A stretch of DNA of 64,000 nucleotides. Origin: Deltaproteobacteria bacterium (lineage in GTDB: Bacteria > Myxococcota_A > UBA796 > GCA-2862545). Shown here in pieces: positions 37,661 through 45,382 of the stretch; within the stretch, counting starts at the first letter, position 1; the number at the start of each line of letters is the position of its first letter. The translations under genes were made by a program, and so were the position numbers. The notes under the pieces were generated by a model. It was given only the letters and a program-made list of their open reading frames with translations. It had not been told where the DNA came from and ran no database searches. The stretch is from assembly GCA_016938035.1 (NCBI GenBank), contig JAFGVK010000107.1, positions 62,001 through 126,000 of the forward strand. The letters run 5' to 3'.

Positions 37661-39316
37661 ATGGCGAACGACACGGACATGGTGCTCGGGATCGACCTGG
37701 GCACGACCTTCTCGGCGATGGCCTATGTCAATCGCTATGGAAAGCCAGAGATCATCCCCAACGCGGACGGGCAGCGCACCACCCCGTCGGTGGTCCACTT
37801 CTATGACGAGGACGCCTGTGTGGTCGGCGATGAGGCCGTCAAGATGGTGGTCATCGACCCAGCCAACGTGATCCGCTTCATCAAGCGCCACATGGGCGAG
37901 GAGGACTTCACCCTCGAGTTCTTCGGGCAGAACTACACCCCACAGGAGGTCTCGGCGCTGATCCTCACCAAGCTCAAGCAGGACGCGGAGGAGCTGGTCG
38001 GCTACGAGATCCACGACGCGGTGATCACCGTCCCCGCGTACTTCAACAGCGCGCAGCGGGGGGCCACCGCGGAGGCGGGCAAAATCGCGGGACTCAACGT
38101 CCTGTCGATCATCAACGAGCCCACCGCGGCGGCCATCGCGCACGGCCTCGACCGGGTAGGCGAGGACCGCAAGCTCCTGGTCCTCGACCTGGGCGGCGGC
38201 ACCTTCGACGTGACCGCGATGGAGATCCGCGGCAGCAAGCTGGTCACCGTGGCCTCGGACGGCAACGCCGAGCTGGGGGGGAAGGACTGGGACGACCGGC
38301 TGGTGAACTACGTCGCCGACGAGTTCTTCGAGAAGTTCTCGCTCGATCCACGCGACGAGGCGGCGCCCTATCAGGAGCTCTACGAGCGCTGTCTGCACGC
38401 CAAGATCAGCCTCTCCAGCAAGGACCGCGCGGTCATCCCGGTGAACTACAAGGGCCACCGCACGGTGGTGAAGGTCACCAGGGAGCTGTTCGAGGAGCTC
38501 ACCGAGGATCTGGTCCAGCAGTGCGAGGACACCGCGGCGCTGGTGATCGAGAAGGCGGGCTTCTCCTGGGAGGAGATCGACGATCTGTTGCTGGTGGGTG
38601 GCTCCACCAGGATGCCGATGATCCAGCGGGCCCTCACCAACCTCACCGGCAAGCAGCCCGTAGAGAGCATCAACCCGGACGAGGCGGTGGCGCTGGGCGC
38701 GGCGCTCGCGGGCGTATTCCGCCATCGCCCGGACCACCCCTCGCTCAAGCCGCCCGAGCCGCCCAAGCCCCGAAAGCGGGTCGAGTCGCTGCCCCCAGAG
38801 CCTTCTCCCTCGACCCCGCGGGGCGCGGTGATCGGCATGGCCTACGGCGGACACGTCGCCGAGGCGGCGGTGGAGCGCAGCAGGCTGCAAGCGGTGGAGA
38901 TTCAGGACGCAACCACCCACCCGCTCGGCATCATCGTGCTGGATCGGGAGCGGCAAGAGCGCGTCGTCGAGCTGATCCCCGAGGGCACCCCCGTGCCCCA
39001 CCAGGTCAAGGGGCGCTTCGCCTACGCCTATCAGAACATGACCGCGGTGCGTGTCGAGGTGACCGAGGGCTCTGGCGCCTACCGCGACGAGGTCACCGTC
39101 ATCGGGAAGGTAGAGCTCAACGGCCTGCCCCCCCGACCGCGCGGCACCCCGATCGAGGTGGTGTACGCCTACGGCGTCGATCAGATCCTCGAGGTGGCGG
39201 TCATCGACGTCGAGACAGGCGCCACCCGCAAGGTCTCCCTCCGCTTCAAGGGCGGCATGAACCACAACGATCTGTCTGACGCCAGCGACCGCAGAGGCAG
39301 GATGCACGTGGAGTAG
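37661..39316 (+). CDS. Hsp70-family chaperone, short form
   Basis: This 551-residue protein has an intact Hsp70 ATPase domain: LGIDLGTTFSAMAYV, VLDLGGGTFDVTAMEI and LLVGGSTRMPMI. A Pro/Lys-rich insert at about 358-390 follows. A short beta domain (about 400-525) with no helical lid and no EEVD-like tail completes it. It is about 90 residues shorter than DnaK. AGGAGG lies seven bases upstream of the ATG. The grpE-like gene just before it recalls the Myxococcus grpS-sglK pair, where SglK is a DnaK homologue needed for social motility; whether this is an orthologue is not known. It is not the housekeeping dnaK by context. Confidence 0.92.
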   Translation: MANDTDMVLGIDLGTTFSAMAYVNRYGKPEIIPNADGQRTTPSVVHFYDEDACVVGDEAVKMVVIDPANVIRFIKRHMGEEDFTLEFFGQNYTPQEVSALILTKLKQDAEELVGYEIHDAVITVPAYFNSAQRGATAEAGKIAGLNVLSIINEPTAAAIAHGLDRVGEDRKLLVLDLGGGTFDVTAMEIRGSKLVTVASDGNAELGGKDWDDRLVNYVADEFFEKFSLDPRDEAAPYQELYERCLHAKISLSSKDRAVIPVNYKGHRTVVKVTRELFEELTEDLVQQCEDTAALVIEKAGFSWEEIDDLLLVGGSTRMPMIQRALTNLTGKQPVESINPDEAVALGAALAGVFRHRPDHPSLKPPEPPKPRKRVESLPPEPSPSTPRGAVIGMAYGGHVAEAAVERSRLQAVEIQDATTHPLGIIVLDRERQERVVELIPEGTPVPHQVKGRFAYAYQNMTAVRVEVTEGSGAYRDEVTVIGKVELNGLPPRPRGTPIEVVYAYGVDQILEVAVIDVETGATRKVSLRFKGGMNHNDLSDASDRRGRMHVE

Positions 39317-39356
39317 CGCCGGCGCACACCGCGCCGCGCCCGTCCCAACGCGCCCC

Positions 39357-39384
39357 TTGACCCTTGGCACAGGGGGGCGATAAG
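39357..39384 (+). promoter_or_regulatory. probable internal promoter before the J-like gene
   Basis: TTGACC (39357-39362, five of six) and GATAAG (39379-39384, four of six) are separated by 16 bases. They lie 28 bases before the start of the J-like gene and after the second Hsp70. This would allow the last two genes of the cluster to be expressed separately. Confidence 0.5.
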
Positions 39385-39411
39385 GTACAGCGCCCGATAC
39401 TGTGGAGATCG

Positions 39412-40605
39412 ATGGACCCCCGCACGCTGACCCTCGCAGCTGAGTTCTGCAGGCTGGTACAGGTCTCGGACCTGCTCACCTACCTGAACCTCGGCGACGA
39501 CGCCTCTCCTGACGAGGTGCGCGGTAGACTTGCGCAGCGGCGCAAGCAAATGCAGGGGATGCAGTCCAATCCCAAGTACAAACAAGAGGCGCTGTTTCTG
39601 ATCAAGAACTTCGCCAAGCTCGATCTGATCGCGACGAGCCCGAACGAGCACCTGGAGGACATGCGCCGCCGCTCCGAGTCCACCCACATGCCGGTGCTGG
39701 AGATGACCATCCTCTCCGCCCTGTCCGGGGGCTCGCTCTCGGAGGAGCAGGAGGACTTCCTGCTCCGCAACGCCCTGGAGCTGGGGGTCTCCGAGTCCAC
39801 CTTCCGCGAGGTGCTCGGCCGCCTGGCGCGGGCGCACGGCGTGAACCTGCCGGGCGACGCGGTCGCGGCCGAGGACGCCGACCACTTCAAGGTGCTCGGT
39901 CTCCCGAAGACCGCGCACCGCGCTCAGATCAGGGCCGCGTACGAGGCCAGGAGCAGGGCGCTCCAGCAGCTCAGCGACCGCAAGAAGGTGCTCTCCGCCC
40001 AGGCTCGCATCGACCGGGCCTTCGCCCAGCTGATGGCCACAGAGACCCTCGCAGAGGAGGACACCTCCGATCGTCCCACGGGTCCCCCAGCGCGCAACAG
40101 GGTCCGCACCGAGCCCATCGACCAGGCCATCTTCAACGCCGCGACCATGCCCCCCGCCTCCCAGCGGGTCGCCGGGCCGCGGGCCATTGAGCAGCTCTCG
40201 CGTGGCGACCTGGGGGTCAGCACCCCTACCCTGGTGGTCTCCGGTCCGAGTGACTACTCGGTGCGACTCCGCAACCGGGTGGTCAGCATCCCCGTCGAGG
40301 TGAGCCTCGCCGGGAACCGCGACGTGGACGCGGCGTGGGTCCACAGCGCGGTGGAGTGGATCGAGGTCAGGCCGCGGCAGCTCAACCTGGACTCGTCCAT
40401 GCAGGTGGTGCACCTCCGCGTGCTCCCCCAGCTGCTGCCCGCGGAGCTGAACCGGGGTGAGGTCAGCTTCCACACCAACGCGGGGCGTGCCGCGAGCGTC
40501 GTGGTCGTCGCGCGCAGGTCCAGCTACCTGATCCCGGCGCTGGTGGGCGGCGTGACCTCGCTGATCATCGCCCTGATGGCGCTGGGTTGGTTTCTTCGAA
40601 CCTAG
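39412..40605 (+). CDS. tail-anchored protein with two J-like modules lacking HPD
   Basis: The start is an ATG with GGAG four bases upstream, 397 residues. Residues 17-66 (DLLTYLNLGDDASPDEVRGR) and about 160-210 (HFKVLGLPKTAHRAQIRAAY) have the helix order of J-domains. Neither has the HPD tripeptide that stimulates Hsp70 ATPase; the second has SDRKK in the expected loop. A beta-rich domain lies at about 265-365 and a single hydrophobic segment at 371-395 ends the protein, like a tail anchor. Its position beside two Hsp70 genes supports a co-chaperone or recruitment role at the membrane. Confidence 0.75.
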   Translation: MDPRTLTLAAEFCRLVQVSDLLTYLNLGDDASPDEVRGRLAQRRKQMQGMQSNPKYKQEALFLIKNFAKLDLIATSPNEHLEDMRRRSESTHMPVLEMTILSALSGGSLSEEQEDFLLRNALELGVSESTFREVLGRLARAHGVNLPGDAVAAEDADHFKVLGLPKTAHRAQIRAAYEARSRALQQLSDRKKVLSAQARIDRAFAQLMATETLAEEDTSDRPTGPPARNRVRTEPIDQAIFNAATMPPASQRVAGPRAIEQLSRGDLGVSTPTLVVSGPSDYSVRLRNRVVSIPVEVSLAGNRDVDAAWVHSAVEWIEVRPRQLNLDSSMQVVHLRVLPQLLPAELNRGEVSFHTNAGRAASVVVVARRSSYLIPALVGGVTSLIIALMALGWFLRT

Positions 40606-40631
40606 GTCCCCGTCTTTCTCCCGAGGTGTTC

Positions 40632-41444
40632 GTGAACCCTGTCGACGTGGAGCTGCTGCTGGACCAGGCCGAGGATGCCCTCCAGAGCGAGAACTTTGAG
40701 CTCACCTTGGAGCTCTGTCAGAGGGTGATGGAGGCGGAGCCCGGCTACCCTGGCGCCCTGTTCCTGGTCGCCGAGACCTGGAGGGCGCTGGGGCAGATGG
40801 ACACCGCTGAGGCTCACTACCGCGCGGTGCTGGCGCAGCTCGCGGGGCACTCAGCCTCGTGGAGCGCGCTGGGCACGGTCTATTTTGACACCCTCCGGCT
40901 GGACGAGGCAGCGAATTGCGCGCTGCGGGCCATCCGGGAGGACCCCGACAACTCCGAGGGCTACTACCTGCGGGCCCTGCTCCGCGAGCGGAGGGGTGAC
41001 TACGCGGGCTCTGACCGGGACTACCTGCAGGCCTCCATCCTGGAGCCGGACCTGTTTCCCCTCCCGGTTCGCCTCGACGACGCGGCGGTAGAGGCGGTGG
41101 TGGAGAGCGCCCTGAGGGCCCTCGACCCGTCCATCCAGGACGAGCTGTCGATGGTCACCATCCTCCTCGACGAGCTCCCCGATCGGGACATCTGCGATCA
41201 GTTCCAGCCCTCCTCGCCCTCGGAGATCCTCGGGGTGTTCACGGGGATGCCGGTCTCCGAGCGCTCGGTGGAGAACCCCTGGAGCCAACTCCCCGCCGGC
41301 ATCGTCATCTTTCGCCGGAACCTGGAGCGCTTCGCCTGGGATCGAGACGCGCTGATCGAGCAGCTCCGGATCACCCTGTTCCACGAGATCGGCCACCACC
41401 TGGGGCTCAGCGAAGAAGATCTTGAAGATCGCGGGCTCGATTAG
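40632..41444 (+). CDS. TPR repeats fused to zincin-like metallopeptidase domain
   Basis: The start is the GTG with GAGG five bases upstream, 270 residues. Residues 5-140 are four TPR-like units (YPGALFLVAETWRALGQMDTAEAHY and following). The C-terminal 110 residues match the zincin_1-type metallopeptidase family: PAGIVIFRRNLERF, then HEIGHHLG at about 250-257 as HExxHxxG, and a final acidic LSEEDLEDRGL. Family members are usually stand-alone and about 120 residues. The TPR part could bind C-terminal tails of the neighbouring Hsp70s. No signal peptide is present, so it is cytosolic. Confidence 0.86.
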   Translation: MNPVDVELLLDQAEDALQSENFELTLELCQRVMEAEPGYPGALFLVAETWRALGQMDTAEAHYRAVLAQLAGHSASWSALGTVYFDTLRLDEAANCALRAIREDPDNSEGYYLRALLRERRGDYAGSDRDYLQASILEPDLFPLPVRLDDAAVEAVVESALRALDPSIQDELSMVTILLDELPDRDICDQFQPSSPSEILGVFTGMPVSERSVENPWSQLPAGIVIFRRNLERFAWDRDALIEQLRITLFHEIGHHLGLSEEDLEDRGLD

Positions 41445-41485: not shown

Positions 41486-41561
41486 GGGGAATTAGCTCAG
41501 TTGGGAGAGCGCGGCGTTCGCAATGCTGAGGTCAGGGGTTCAAGTCCCCTATTCTCCACCA
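41486..41561 (+). tRNA. tRNA-Ala (anticodon CGC)
   Basis: A full cloverleaf can be drawn: acceptor GGGGAAT with ATTCTCC, D-arm GCTC/GAGC, anticodon stem CGGCG/TGCTG with loop TTCGCAA, T-arm AGGGG/CCCCT with TTCAAGT, then A and an encoded CCA. The third acceptor pair is G-U, the identity mark of alanine tRNA. The anticodon CGC reads GCG. Two G-T pairs occur in the anticodon stem. Confidence 0.97.
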
Positions 41562-41691: not shown

Positions 41692-44376
41692 CTACCTGCG
41701 CCTGCGGCGCCTGCGGCGCTTGGGCGGCGCAGCCCCTTGCGAGGGGATCGGGCAGGGCGTCTGCAAGAACTCCTCCCACCGCTGCCTGGTGAGGGTGAGA
41801 AACTCCGACCACTCGGTGCGGCGCGCGCTGGAATTCAGCTGCATCAGCTGATGCCCCAGCTGCCTAGCCTGTAGCACCACCTCTCGGTCTTCTAGCGGGC
41901 GGACCCAGCGGAAGCGGGGCTCCGCGACCTCGGCGTCACCCACCACCGCCTGGATCCCGTGGTTCCGCATGTGGATCTCAGAGAGCTTGAAGCCGTCCTC
42001 CGTCTCCGCGACCGCCCTCACCCAGGCCACGTCCGCCGGGGCGGGGTCGTCTCCGAGGATGAAGAAGCACCGCCCCGGACGCCGCCCTGTGGCCGCCTGG
42101 CCCCTGATGCGGTGCAGCCTCAGGTCGTCCACCCTGTTGGCGTGCTCCACGATCACCACCGTCGCGTCCGGCACCGCGGGCCCTCCCTCGTAGTGGGTGG
42201 TGGCCACGAGCACGTCCAGGCGCCTGTGGCGGAAGTTGTCATAGACGCGCGCGCGATCCTCGCGGCTCATCGCCCCGTGAAAGAGCCCCACCCTCCGCCC
42301 CGGGAACTCGTTCTCGATCGCCTCTACCGCCCTGTGACCGTCCCGCAGCTCGAGCAGATCATGGCCCTCCAGCATCGGGAACACCACGATCGCTTGGTGC
42401 CCGGCGTCGAGTAAGGCGGTGGCCTCTCGGTAGGCCTCCTTGCGGTTCGCCCCCTCAACCACGGTGCTCTGCACCGGCTGCCGGTTCGGATCCGGGGTGA
42501 GCAGGCTCACGTCGAAGCGCGCGAAGGCGGTGAGCAGCACCTGGACCGGGACCGGGGTGGAGGTCACCACCAGCAGATCGGGCCTTGTGCCCTTGATCGG
42601 CTTGATCACCGGCTCCTGAGACCCGTAGACGGCGCCCTCGTGGGCGATGATCAGGCCCAGCCGTCGGAATTCCAGCGGGGTCTCCAGCATCTCTGCGGTT
42701 CCAAAGGTCACGTGGACCTCCCCCCGGCGGACGGCGTCCCGCTGCGCCCTGGTCGGCGGTCCGGTCAGCAGCCGGCCCACCAGCCCCAGATCCTTCAGCA
42801 GCGGCTCAGCGAAGAGGAACGCGTGCTCGGAGGCGCCCATGTTCTCGTGCAGGACCAGCACCTGTCCCCGCGCGGAGGCCACCATCACCGAGACCAGCAG
42901 CGCCAGCAACCCCTTGCCGGTCCCCACCTCACCTGTGAGGACGCGCTGCATGGGGTGGGCTGCGCGCAGATCGCGCTTGATGTCCTCGATCACCGACTGC
43001 TGGTTGTCGTTGAGCCGCAGGTCCTGCTGCCGGCTGATCGACGCCACAGGTCCGTGGAGGATGGTCTGCGGGAGGCCCCGCTCTCGCACCGGCTGCGCCC
43101 CGTTCCAGCCCAACCCCACCTGCAGCCTGAGGGCCTCGTCAAAGGCCATCCTGCGGTGCGCCGCGTGGCGCTCTGGCCCTCGGGCGTGAACCTCCTTGAG
43201 GGCCGCGACGAAGGGCATCAGCTTGAGCTGCTCGACCTCGGCCGGAGAGAGGAAGTCCCCCCCCCGCTCGATGGCCGGCGCGAGGCAGCGCATGGTGTCG
43301 CGGATCAGGCGATCCGCCAATTCCAGACCATAGGTGGCCAGGCGAACCGCCTGCTTTCCATCCCCCTGGGCCAGCTCAGGCTGGTCCAGCACCGGGAGGA
43401 GCTCCTCGGAGCCCTCCCGGTAGTCTCCTACCAAGACCACCCTGGTCCCTGGCGCCAGCCGCTCGCGCATCCAGGGGGGCGGCTCCTGCGCCCATCGCAG
43501 CACCACCGGGCCTGCCCCCACCAGCAGGGCCTCGACCGCCGCGCTGCCGTCGGCGAAGCACCTGGTGGACCAGGCGCGGATCCTCCCGCTGACCGCCAGG
43601 CGGCCAGCCCCCTGGACTCTGCCGGCCCCGTGGATCGGCCGCAGCACCTCCTCGCCGCTGGGGGGCATCAGGAGCAGGTCCCACACGGTGTTCACCCCGG
43701 CGGTCGCGAGCAACTCGCGCACCTCCGGGAGGATCTCCTCAAAGGCGCTCTCGAAATGGGAGAGCTGGAGGCTGTCGTCCTCGATCAGCTCCGCCTCCTG
43801 GACGAGCACCTCCTCCACCTCGGGAGTCGCCCGCTTCGGCCGGCGTCCCCTCCCCTCGCGCCTGGGTTCGACGGCGCGCTTGCCGCTCTGAGCGCGTGCG
43901 CTCCCCCCCTTCGACGGCGCGGCTCGGGTCGCTCCGCCCCGGCCCGTCGTGGCACGGGGCTCGCTCTTGGGGGCGCGCGCGGGCTCCTTGGCGGGCTGCG
44001 CCTCCTCCACACCCAGGGGAAACCCGAGCAGGGCGTCGACGCGGCTCACGATCTGGTTCACCTCCGCCACCCGGAGGCGCTGGACCTCGGGCTCGGCGAG
44101 GGCGATATCACGCAGCAAATAGAGGACGTCCTCCACCTGCGTACCCAGCAGCTCCAGCTCGGGGGCTGTCCGGACCGACGCGAGGGAGCGCTGGGCGATC
44201 GCCTCGATATAGCGCACCGATCGGAGCCGCTCGTCCCCTCCCCCCAGCACCCAGAGCACTACCCTCCGCAGGGGAGCTAGCGCCCTGTCCACGTCCAGGA
44301 GGGACACTCCCACCTCATGCACCTCGTCCCCGACGAGCAGGACATCGTCTCCGAAGTCCCCGAGCTCCTCGATCAT
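41692..44376 (-). CDS. RecG-like helicase paralogue with altered catalytic motifs
   Basis: This 894-residue protein has the RecG layout: an OB-fold part near 225-330, the helicase core, and a TxxFARFDV/TRP-style C-terminus. The core motifs are altered. Walker A is TGEVGTGKG (Lys kept, Thr/Ser after it replaced by Gly). The DEQH box is AHEG near residue 575, motif III is TSTPVPVQ instead of (S/T)ATPIPR, and motif VI HRIRGQAATGRRPG lacks the usual QxxGRxGR pattern. A basic linker (about 130-195) precedes the OB fold. ATP hydrolysis is doubtful; DNA binding may remain. It ends with nine basic residues. It follows greA by nine bases. Confidence 0.82.
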   Translation of the reverse strand: MIEELGDFGDDVLLVGDEVHEVGVSLLDVDRALAPLRRVVLWVLGGGDERLRSVRYIEAIAQRSLASVRTAPELELLGTQVEDVLYLLRDIALAEPEVQRLRVAEVNQIVSRVDALLGFPLGVEEAQPAKEPARAPKSEPRATTGRGGATRAAPSKGGSARAQSGKRAVEPRREGRGRRPKRATPEVEEVLVQEAELIEDDSLQLSHFESAFEEILPEVRELLATAGVNTVWDLLLMPPSGEEVLRPIHGAGRVQGAGRLAVSGRIRAWSTRCFADGSAAVEALLVGAGPVVLRWAQEPPPWMRERLAPGTRVVLVGDYREGSEELLPVLDQPELAQGDGKQAVRLATYGLELADRLIRDTMRCLAPAIERGGDFLSPAEVEQLKLMPFVAALKEVHARGPERHAAHRRMAFDEALRLQVGLGWNGAQPVRERGLPQTILHGPVASISRQQDLRLNDNQQSVIEDIKRDLRAAHPMQRVLTGEVGTGKGLLALLVSVMVASARGQVLVLHENMGASEHAFLFAEPLLKDLGLVGRLLTGPPTRAQRDAVRRGEVHVTFGTAEMLETPLEFRRLGLIIAHEGAVYGSQEPVIKPIKGTRPDLLVVTSTPVPVQVLLTAFARFDVSLLTPDPNRQPVQSTVVEGANRKEAYREATALLDAGHQAIVVFPMLEGHDLLELRDGHRAVEAIENEFPGRRVGLFHGAMSREDRARVYDNFRHRRLDVLVATTHYEGGPAVPDATVVIVEHANRVDDLRLHRIRGQAATGRRPGRCFFILGDDPAPADVAWVRAVAETEDGFKLSEIHMRNHGIQAVVGDAEVAEPRFRWVRPLEDREVVLQARQLGHQLMQLNSSARRTEWSEFLTLTRQRWEEFLQTPCPIPSQGAAPPKRRRRRRRR

Positions 44377-44385
44377 GGCTGCCTC

Positions 44386-44862
44386 TCAGATGTATTTGAC
44401 CTCGATGATCTCCCACACCTGACGGCCGCCAGGCGTGACCACGGTCACCTCCTCCCCCTCGCTGTGGCCGATGAGGGCCTGCGCTAGGGGAGAGGTGTAG
44501 CTGATCTTGCCGGCCTTGACGTCCGACTCGGTTGTCCCCACGATGCGGTATTCGCGCTCCTCGCCGCTCTCGGGGCTCTCCAACACCACGGTGGTGCCGA
44601 ACACCACCCTCCCGTTGCGGGGCAGGCGCGCCACATCGATGATCTCTGCCGCCGCCGCGAGCATCTCCAGGTGGGAGATCCTCGCCTCGAGCATCGACTG
44701 CCGCTCCTTGGCTGCCTCGAACTCTGCGTTCTCGCTGATGTCCCCATGCGCGCGGGCCTCTTCGATGTCCCGGACGTTCTGCGGGCGAAGAACCGATTTG
44801 TGGTTCTTCAAATCAGCAACGAGGACCTCGTAGCCCTCGGGAGTAATCGGATTCCGTTGCAT
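44386..44862 (-). CDS. greA: transcription elongation factor GreA
   Basis: GreA rescues backtracked RNA polymerase by stimulating transcript cleavage. The 158-residue protein has the coiled-coil N-terminus with the acidic tip ARAHGDISENAEFEAAKERQ (residues 37-56, catalytic Asp and Glu) and the globular C-terminus with FGTTVVLESPESGEEREYRIVG and SPLAQALIGHSEGEEV. Length fits. It is followed after nine bases by the RecG-like gene, which should share its transcript. Confidence 0.97.
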   Translation of the reverse strand: MQRNPITPEGYEVLVADLKNHKSVLRPQNVRDIEEARAHGDISENAEFEAAKERQSMLEARISHLEMLAAAAEIIDVARLPRNGRVVFGTTVVLESPESGEEREYRIVGTTESDVKAGKISYTSPLAQALIGHSEGEEVTVVTPGGRQVWEIIEVKYI

Positions 44863-45013: not shown

Positions 45014-45382
45014 CTAGTCTAGCGCCTTTCTCGACTGGAAATGCAGGACAATCGGCCGGTCGATCAGCGGGATCACCTCGGTGGCGCTCCACTGGCAGTC
45101 CACCGTCCTCCGCCCCTGCTCCTCGGCGAGGGCGCAGTGGTGGTCGGCCACGTGGGCCTCGTCGATCCCCGTGTGGTCCAGCTCGTACTGGAGGCGCTCC
45201 ACCCCGCGCTCCCGACCGAAGTCGCGCCACTCGATCGCGACCACCTCGACCACCTGGTCCAGGCGGAGGTCATCGAGCAGGTAGGGGCCAAAGGTGATCA
45301 CCAGCCACGCCAGCACCACCACCAGCGCGCTCGCGAGCGCAGCGAGGGCCCCCCCCCCAAGCCAGCGCAGGGCGCGCCGCAT
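45014..45382 (-). CDS. small single-span membrane protein of unknown function
   Basis: This 122-residue protein has one N-terminal hydrophobic segment (residues 10-35) followed by a soluble domain with strands VVEVVAIEWRDFGRERGVERL and a Cys pair (CALAEEQGRRTVDC). Four bases separate its start from the lepA stop, so it is probably co-transcribed. Codons 9-11 contain a run of ten G (45349-45358 on the plus strand as C). I do not recognise a family. Confidence 0.72.
   Translation of the reverse strand: MRRALRWLGGGALAALASALVVVLAWLVITFGPYLLDDLRLDQVVEVVAIEWRDFGRERGVERLQYELDHTGIDEAHVADHHCALAEEQGRRTVDCQWSATEVIPLIDRPIVLHFQSRKALD

Follow-up and report, generated by a model that had tools for sequence, protein, structure and literature searches.

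The recG gene studied here lies in the window, that is, the whole stretch of 64,000 nucleotides that was analysed, and it probably encodes an ATPase-dead pseudohelicase, a protein that keeps the RecG fold and acts by binding nucleic acid or partners. Judging from its locus and gene tree, the protein is the sole RecG orthologue of the order to which the genome belongs, and not a paralogue.

Identity, layout and predicted fold

The gene, the gene upstream of it and the regions of the protein outside the motor motifs are placed as follows.

41692..44376, minus strand: pseudo-RecG, a diverged RecG orthologue of 894 aa (open reading frame; RecG profiles; 1gm5 match; AlphaFold2 model with pLDDT 84)
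44386..44862, minus strand: greA, the upstream partner in a putative operon with recG (Pfam GreA N and C domains; conserved linkage)
44026..44301, minus strand: N-terminal helical domain, residues 26-117 (AlphaFold2 helices 26-117)
43768..44010, minus strand: low-confidence (disordered), partly basic linker, residues 123-203 (pLDDT <50)
43330..43719, minus strand: wedge/OB region, residues 220-349, strongly diverged and with Ala as the F97 equivalent (Pfam RecG_wedge E=0.074; F97 column; AlphaFold2 strands 241-348)
41776..41781, minus strand: R866-W867, aligned with R682-W683 of E. coli (alignment)

The open reading frame of pseudo-RecG begins 10 bases past the stop codon of greA. Over most of its length the window protein fits no family but RecG, with matches in profile searches to NF008168 (6.3e-95, residues 193-869) and TIGR00643 (2.2e-73, residues 228-839), and a RecG-like layout had already been recognised in a sequence-only reading of this DNA. 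Both profile scores are far under the curated cut-offs, the protein reaching 248 bits against a curated RecG cut-off of 659, and in Pfam the sole family above cut-off is Helicase_C, with RecG_wedge sub-threshold. The top PDB match by sequence is the RecG of T. maritima (1gm5, E = 1.8e-49). The mfd profile (TIGR00580) covers residues 456-779 only; the window protein shares the RecG-type translocase module and the TRG motif with Mfd, but it is without the other domains of Mfd, does not have the Mfd-length architecture with RNAP-interaction and UvrB-like domains, and comes from a genome with a canonical Mfd of its own.

An AlphaFold2 model of the window protein, built on a 24-sequence alignment, has a mean pLDDT of 84, with the motor lobes mostly above 90 and the linker at residues 123-203 disordered. 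In a fold search with this model the best PDB match was again RecG 1gm5 (E = 6.6e-33), with Mfd next; the global TM-score is low (0.36/0.41), thus the model supports a RecG fold and not the arrangement of its domains. The RecG fold is predicted to be retained, with the domain order being that of RecG, N-terminal helices followed by the wedge/OB region, two RecA-like lobes and a C-terminal hairpin.

In E. coli RecG, R682-W683 are needed for replication-site foci (PMC4027168); the RW motif near the C-terminus is present in the window copy, but in just part of the order, and was rejected as a diagnostic feature. R467, R474 and R614 of E. coli RecG are SSB docking residues (PMC10164576), and lost SSB docking is uninformative as a reason for the change, since these columns are unconserved in the canonical RecG of the phylum too.

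Convergent to recG, on the plus strand at 37661-41444, are genes for an Hsp70 paralogue, an unknown 413-aa protein and a TPR-zincin metallopeptidase, a trio that adjoins recG in many genomes of the order, and a tRNA gene (41486-41558, plus strand) lies between the TPR-zincin gene and recG. A putative membrane protein of 122 aa with no Pfam family is encoded at 45014-45382 on the minus strand; its gene stays in this position, with lepA and greA on either side, in much of the order.

Loss of the motor residues

Motifs were read after aligning the window protein to RecG of E. coli and to relatives, and three of them are placed here.

42910..42933, minus strand: Walker A, residues 482-489, reading GEVGTGKG with the Lys but not the Thr (alignment)
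42631..42642, minus strand: HEGA in place of the DEQH box, residues 579-582 (alignment)
42088..42120, minus strand: RLHRIRGQAAT in place of motif VI, residues 753-763, with neither arginine-finger position kept (alignment)

The damage to the helicase motifs that the sequence-only reading had reported is borne out by this alignment, and further losses are apparent in the Arg of motif III, in motif V, in the Phe of the wedge and in the Gln of the TRG loop. Motif I goes from GDVGSGKT to GEVGTGKG, ending in GKG as had been described, with the Thr changed to Gly and GxGxGKT no longer present. In motif II the earlier reading of AHEG was right as to the damage but one residue off in register, the residues aligned with DEQH being HEGA (D to H, E kept, Q to G, H to A), which is neither DExH nor DEQH. 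Motif III changes from TATPIPR to TSTPVPV and motif V from EVGVDVP to EGGPAVP. In motif VI QLHQLRGRVGRG is aligned with RLHRIRGQAATG in the window protein, the core going from QLRGRVGR to RIRGQAAT, so that QxxGRxGR and both arginine-finger positions are gone, and here too the first description was correct. The TRG loop, RGPGELLGTRQ in the canonical form, reads HGIQAVVGDAE and does not follow GPGxLxGxRQ, with the loss of the Gln in the column of E. coli Q640, a residue essential for RecG activity (PMC6213257). The aromatic Phe of the wedge is replaced by Ala.

The Mfd of the same genome (contig C115) serves as an internal control, and in it DEEH, QLRGRVGRG and the TRG loop RGAGNLLGEAQSG are intact. 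That the catalytic residues are present and merely hidden by misalignment, a possibility allowed for when the damage was first reported, was rejected, as the flanking PM.R..G, LGL, the E398 position, HG.M and TT..E all stay aligned and the residues are absent. A sequencing or assembly artefact was also rejected, because the same losses recur in about 50 independent assemblies.

The extent of the loss across the order had been missed in the sequence-only reading. Seven catalytic positions (K302, T303, D397, E398, R433, R584 and R587 in E. coli numbering) were scored in the 48 readable copies from the order, whose members keep one to three of the seven as against seven in canonical relatives; ten canonical sequences from the phylum have all seven catalytic residues, with one scoring 4 because its contig ends. 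The Walker B Asp (D397) is absent in 48 of the 48 copies whilst the canonical sequences of the phylum keep all seven residues, thus the loss of the motifs is not due to chance. Among near-invariant canonical columns 28 of 122 are lost in the order, six positions have become fixed to a residue different from the canonical one (T326 to D, V557 to P and Q577 to R are examples), and many further positions are newly conserved.

The pattern is fairly uniform in families f2 to f6, where Walker B is mostly EE, a conservative change of D to E, motif VI is often RLHRLRGHV and the P-loop Lys is retained in 28 of the 31 readable members. In family f1, to which the window belongs, decay is more advanced and the P-loop itself is missing in several members. 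Three copies from genus g20 of family f2 (L075, L081 and L210) have lost Walker A separately within f2 (ADAGAGAH), so decay of the P-loop is not confined to f1.

The retained residues could be taken to mean that the protein is a remodelled SF2 motor that is still nucleotide-dependent, binding ATP and perhaps hydrolysing it slowly, with EE for DE in Walker B and other arginines replacing the fingers. The P-loop Lys of f2 to f6 would fit with this, as would the retention of E398, the catalytic-base position, in 42 of the 48 copies and a new Arg that is fixed at position 577 and largely so at 580 (E. coli numbering). Such an enzyme is nonetheless unlikely, as almost no member keeps either of the Mg-coordinating residues, Thr and Asp, the motif III Arg, motif V, both finger positions and the TRG-loop Gln are lost, and several f1 lineages lose the P-loop yet keep the protein. 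E398 is present in 12 of the 12 copies that have no P-loop Lys, which suggests that its role in those copies is structural. In f2 to f6 some residual ATP binding or weak ATPase may persist, given the retention of E398, the change of D to E and the P-loop Lys.

Orthology, selection and the arginine tail

The protein had been described as a paralogue of RecG with an unusual linkage to greA, and neither claim holds. Apart from pseudo-RecG, the window genome (5.19 Mb, 89% complete) yielded Mfd and no second RecG. No canonical RecG was found across 63 genomes of the order, which fall into six families (f1 to f6) and several of which are 97-99% complete, and a degenerate copy is present in 20 of the 21 genomes of f1. 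In the sister families f8 and f9 of the same class, RecG scores 564-628 bits and keeps all catalytic residues; as these scores are also below the cut-off of 659 bits, it is the residues and not the score that separate canonical from degenerate copies.

In each of the 20 flanks checked greA is directly upstream of recG, whether the copy is degenerate (f1 to f6) or canonical (f8 and f9), and in many of them lepA and/or ugd lie further upstream, again for both kinds of copy. The greA-recG adjacency is also found in a genome of a further family, f7. As the canonical copies of f8 and f9 share the linkage with the degenerate ones, it is ancestral to the class. In the gene tree the order forms a clade with SH-aLRT 100 on a long stem of about 1 change/site, within which f1, f2, f3 and f5 each form a single clade, as expected from vertical descent, and f4 and f6 intermix slightly. 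The shared ugd-lepA-greA-recG locus and a gene tree that tracks the families indicate that the window protein is a vertical RecG orthologue. The incompleteness of the window genome might still have led to a normal RecG being overlooked beside an extra paralogue, which is hardly conceivable when none of the 63 genomes has a canonical RecG and synteny puts the window copy at the ancestral recG locus.

With greA adjacent in every flank, and Mfd being the nearest relative after RecG, the protein might be thought of as a transcription factor that joins GreA in acting on R-loops or stalled RNA polymerase, in the manner of Mfd but without the motor. This is quite improbable, as the linkage is shared with intact RecG, so it predates the loss and is no pointer to a new role, a separate Mfd is present, and no RNAP-interaction domain was detected in the Pfam scan.

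The dN/dS (Nei-Gojobori) of recG in the order is 0.10, 0.11 and 0.16 in the pairs with the lowest dS and 0.2-0.5 near saturation, a matched genome pair gave 0.23 for pseudo-RecG against 0.22 for greA, and pairs of canonical RecG gave 0.08-0.43. The frames of pseudo-RecG are long and open across the six families. On these measures pseudo-RecG is under purifying selection and is not a dying gene. A pseudogene, or a remnant protein being lost from a phylum that can do without RecG, would agree with the fast evolution of the order clade on its long stem and with other families of the phylum having no RecG at E<=1e-20. It is very unlikely, however, with intact long frames in six families, dN/dS well below 1, newly conserved residues and a conserved basic tail.

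That tail had also been missed.

41695..41721, minus strand: C-terminal basic tail, KRRRRRRRR, new in the order (sequence comparison)

A basic Arg/Lys tail, usually resembling KRRRRRRRR, passes a simple test in 46 of 52 sequences from the order. Of the six exceptions, one has an Arg-rich tail with an interruption, and the others are either fragments or stop inside the RecG domains, for the most part where a contig ends. All copies with an intact C-terminus are basic-tailed. The tail is absent from E. coli RecG and from those canonical RecG proteins of the phylum that were examined. Arginine tails as a habit of the whole genome were rejected, stop-ended Arg7 runs being few in the window genome, and two of these, when examined with their surroundings, seemed to be other sequence read off frame.

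A putative scaffold and the fate of recG in the phylum

With the motifs destroyed and the RecG layout retained, a catalytically dead and probably nucleic-acid-binding protein, as the sequence-only reading had proposed, is the best reading. The sequences show that in the common ancestor of the six families RecG lost the residues that coordinate Mg-ATP (Walker A Thr and Walker B Asp), those for ATP sensing and hydrolysis (motif III Arg, motif V and the motif VI Arg fingers) and the TRG loop that couples ATP to double-stranded DNA. The protein was kept intact under purifying selection, with new residues fixed at former motif positions and the C-terminal Arg/Lys tail gained. ATP hydrolysis and translocation would be gone, and the retained two-lobe RecG scaffold and basic tail may bind nucleic acid (forks, R-loops or nucleoid DNA) or a replisome or transcription partner, thereby serving as a structural or recruiting factor. 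As the branch-recognising wedge has diverged, binding that is specific to forks is uncertain. In f2 to f6, with the P-loop Lys mostly kept, nucleotide binding without hydrolysis could possibly act as a switch, which would be decaying in the family of the window. Most genomes of the order have a canonical PriA and a canonical RuvB, thus the context of fork restart and branch migration persists.

The cellular role of RecG is still debated. Set beside RecG of E. coli and T. maritima, the window protein shares vertical descent, domain order and the P-loop Lys, but differs in the losses from Walker A and B, motifs III, V and VI, the wedge and the TRG loop, in its low profile score and in the gained basic tail. 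It combines what marks a pseudohelicase, namely a fold that is retained (here as predicted by the model), catalytic residues that are lost and purifying selection. The best-documented and seemingly closest analogue found is the PriA pseudohelicase of Deinococcus radiodurans, also a fork-restart SF2 helicase in which the Walker motifs have decayed across a bacterial lineage and the protein is kept; that PriA has degenerate Walker motifs and no ATPase or unwinding, and binds forks almost normally (PMC4504706). The Deinococcus protein differs in belonging to the PriA family and in being biochemically proven, whereas the window protein is a predicted pseudohelicase, and the accessible text of that report mentions no polyarginine tail (PMC4504706). 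In the open-licence full-text literature no earlier description of a RecG pseudohelicase was found, which is weak evidence of novelty.

The chances are about even that the order has swapped an active fork-remodelling helicase for a motor-less, arginine-tailed RecG scaffold with a conserved function of its own, for example as an architectural factor that binds forks or R-loops or as a nucleotide-binding switch; if true, RecG proteins would gain a new functional class. Scaffold functions and translocation come apart in an order that has a RecG protein but no motor, and such an order would reveal which functions of RecG survive without ATP; the conserved arginine tail is a specific gain that can be tested.

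A differently degenerate RecG is found in the f7 genome (G038), from another order of the same class, as a frame of 1559 aa (L196:5467-10143) in a ugd-greA-recG locus. ADPRAGAF and VIHEGETIG replace its Walker A and B, it has no arginine tail, and the genome has no Mfd-scale match at E<=1e-60. The f7 protein is placed sister to the order (SH-aLRT 93), and as this placement rests on a long branch the origins of the decay may be one or two.

One report describes RecG as occurring in almost all bacteria (PMC3542137). The RecG family model was used to sample other classes for degenerate copies, with 30 genomes of further families of the phylum (f13, f15, f17, f19, f24, f44 and others) that were chosen for having at most one earlier match and are mostly more than 90% complete. 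None of the 30 has a RecG beyond Mfd at E<=1e-20, so recG has seemingly been lost outright in several lineages, an apparently repeated loss within the phylum, and these neighbouring lineages provide a natural comparison for the order that keeps the protein.
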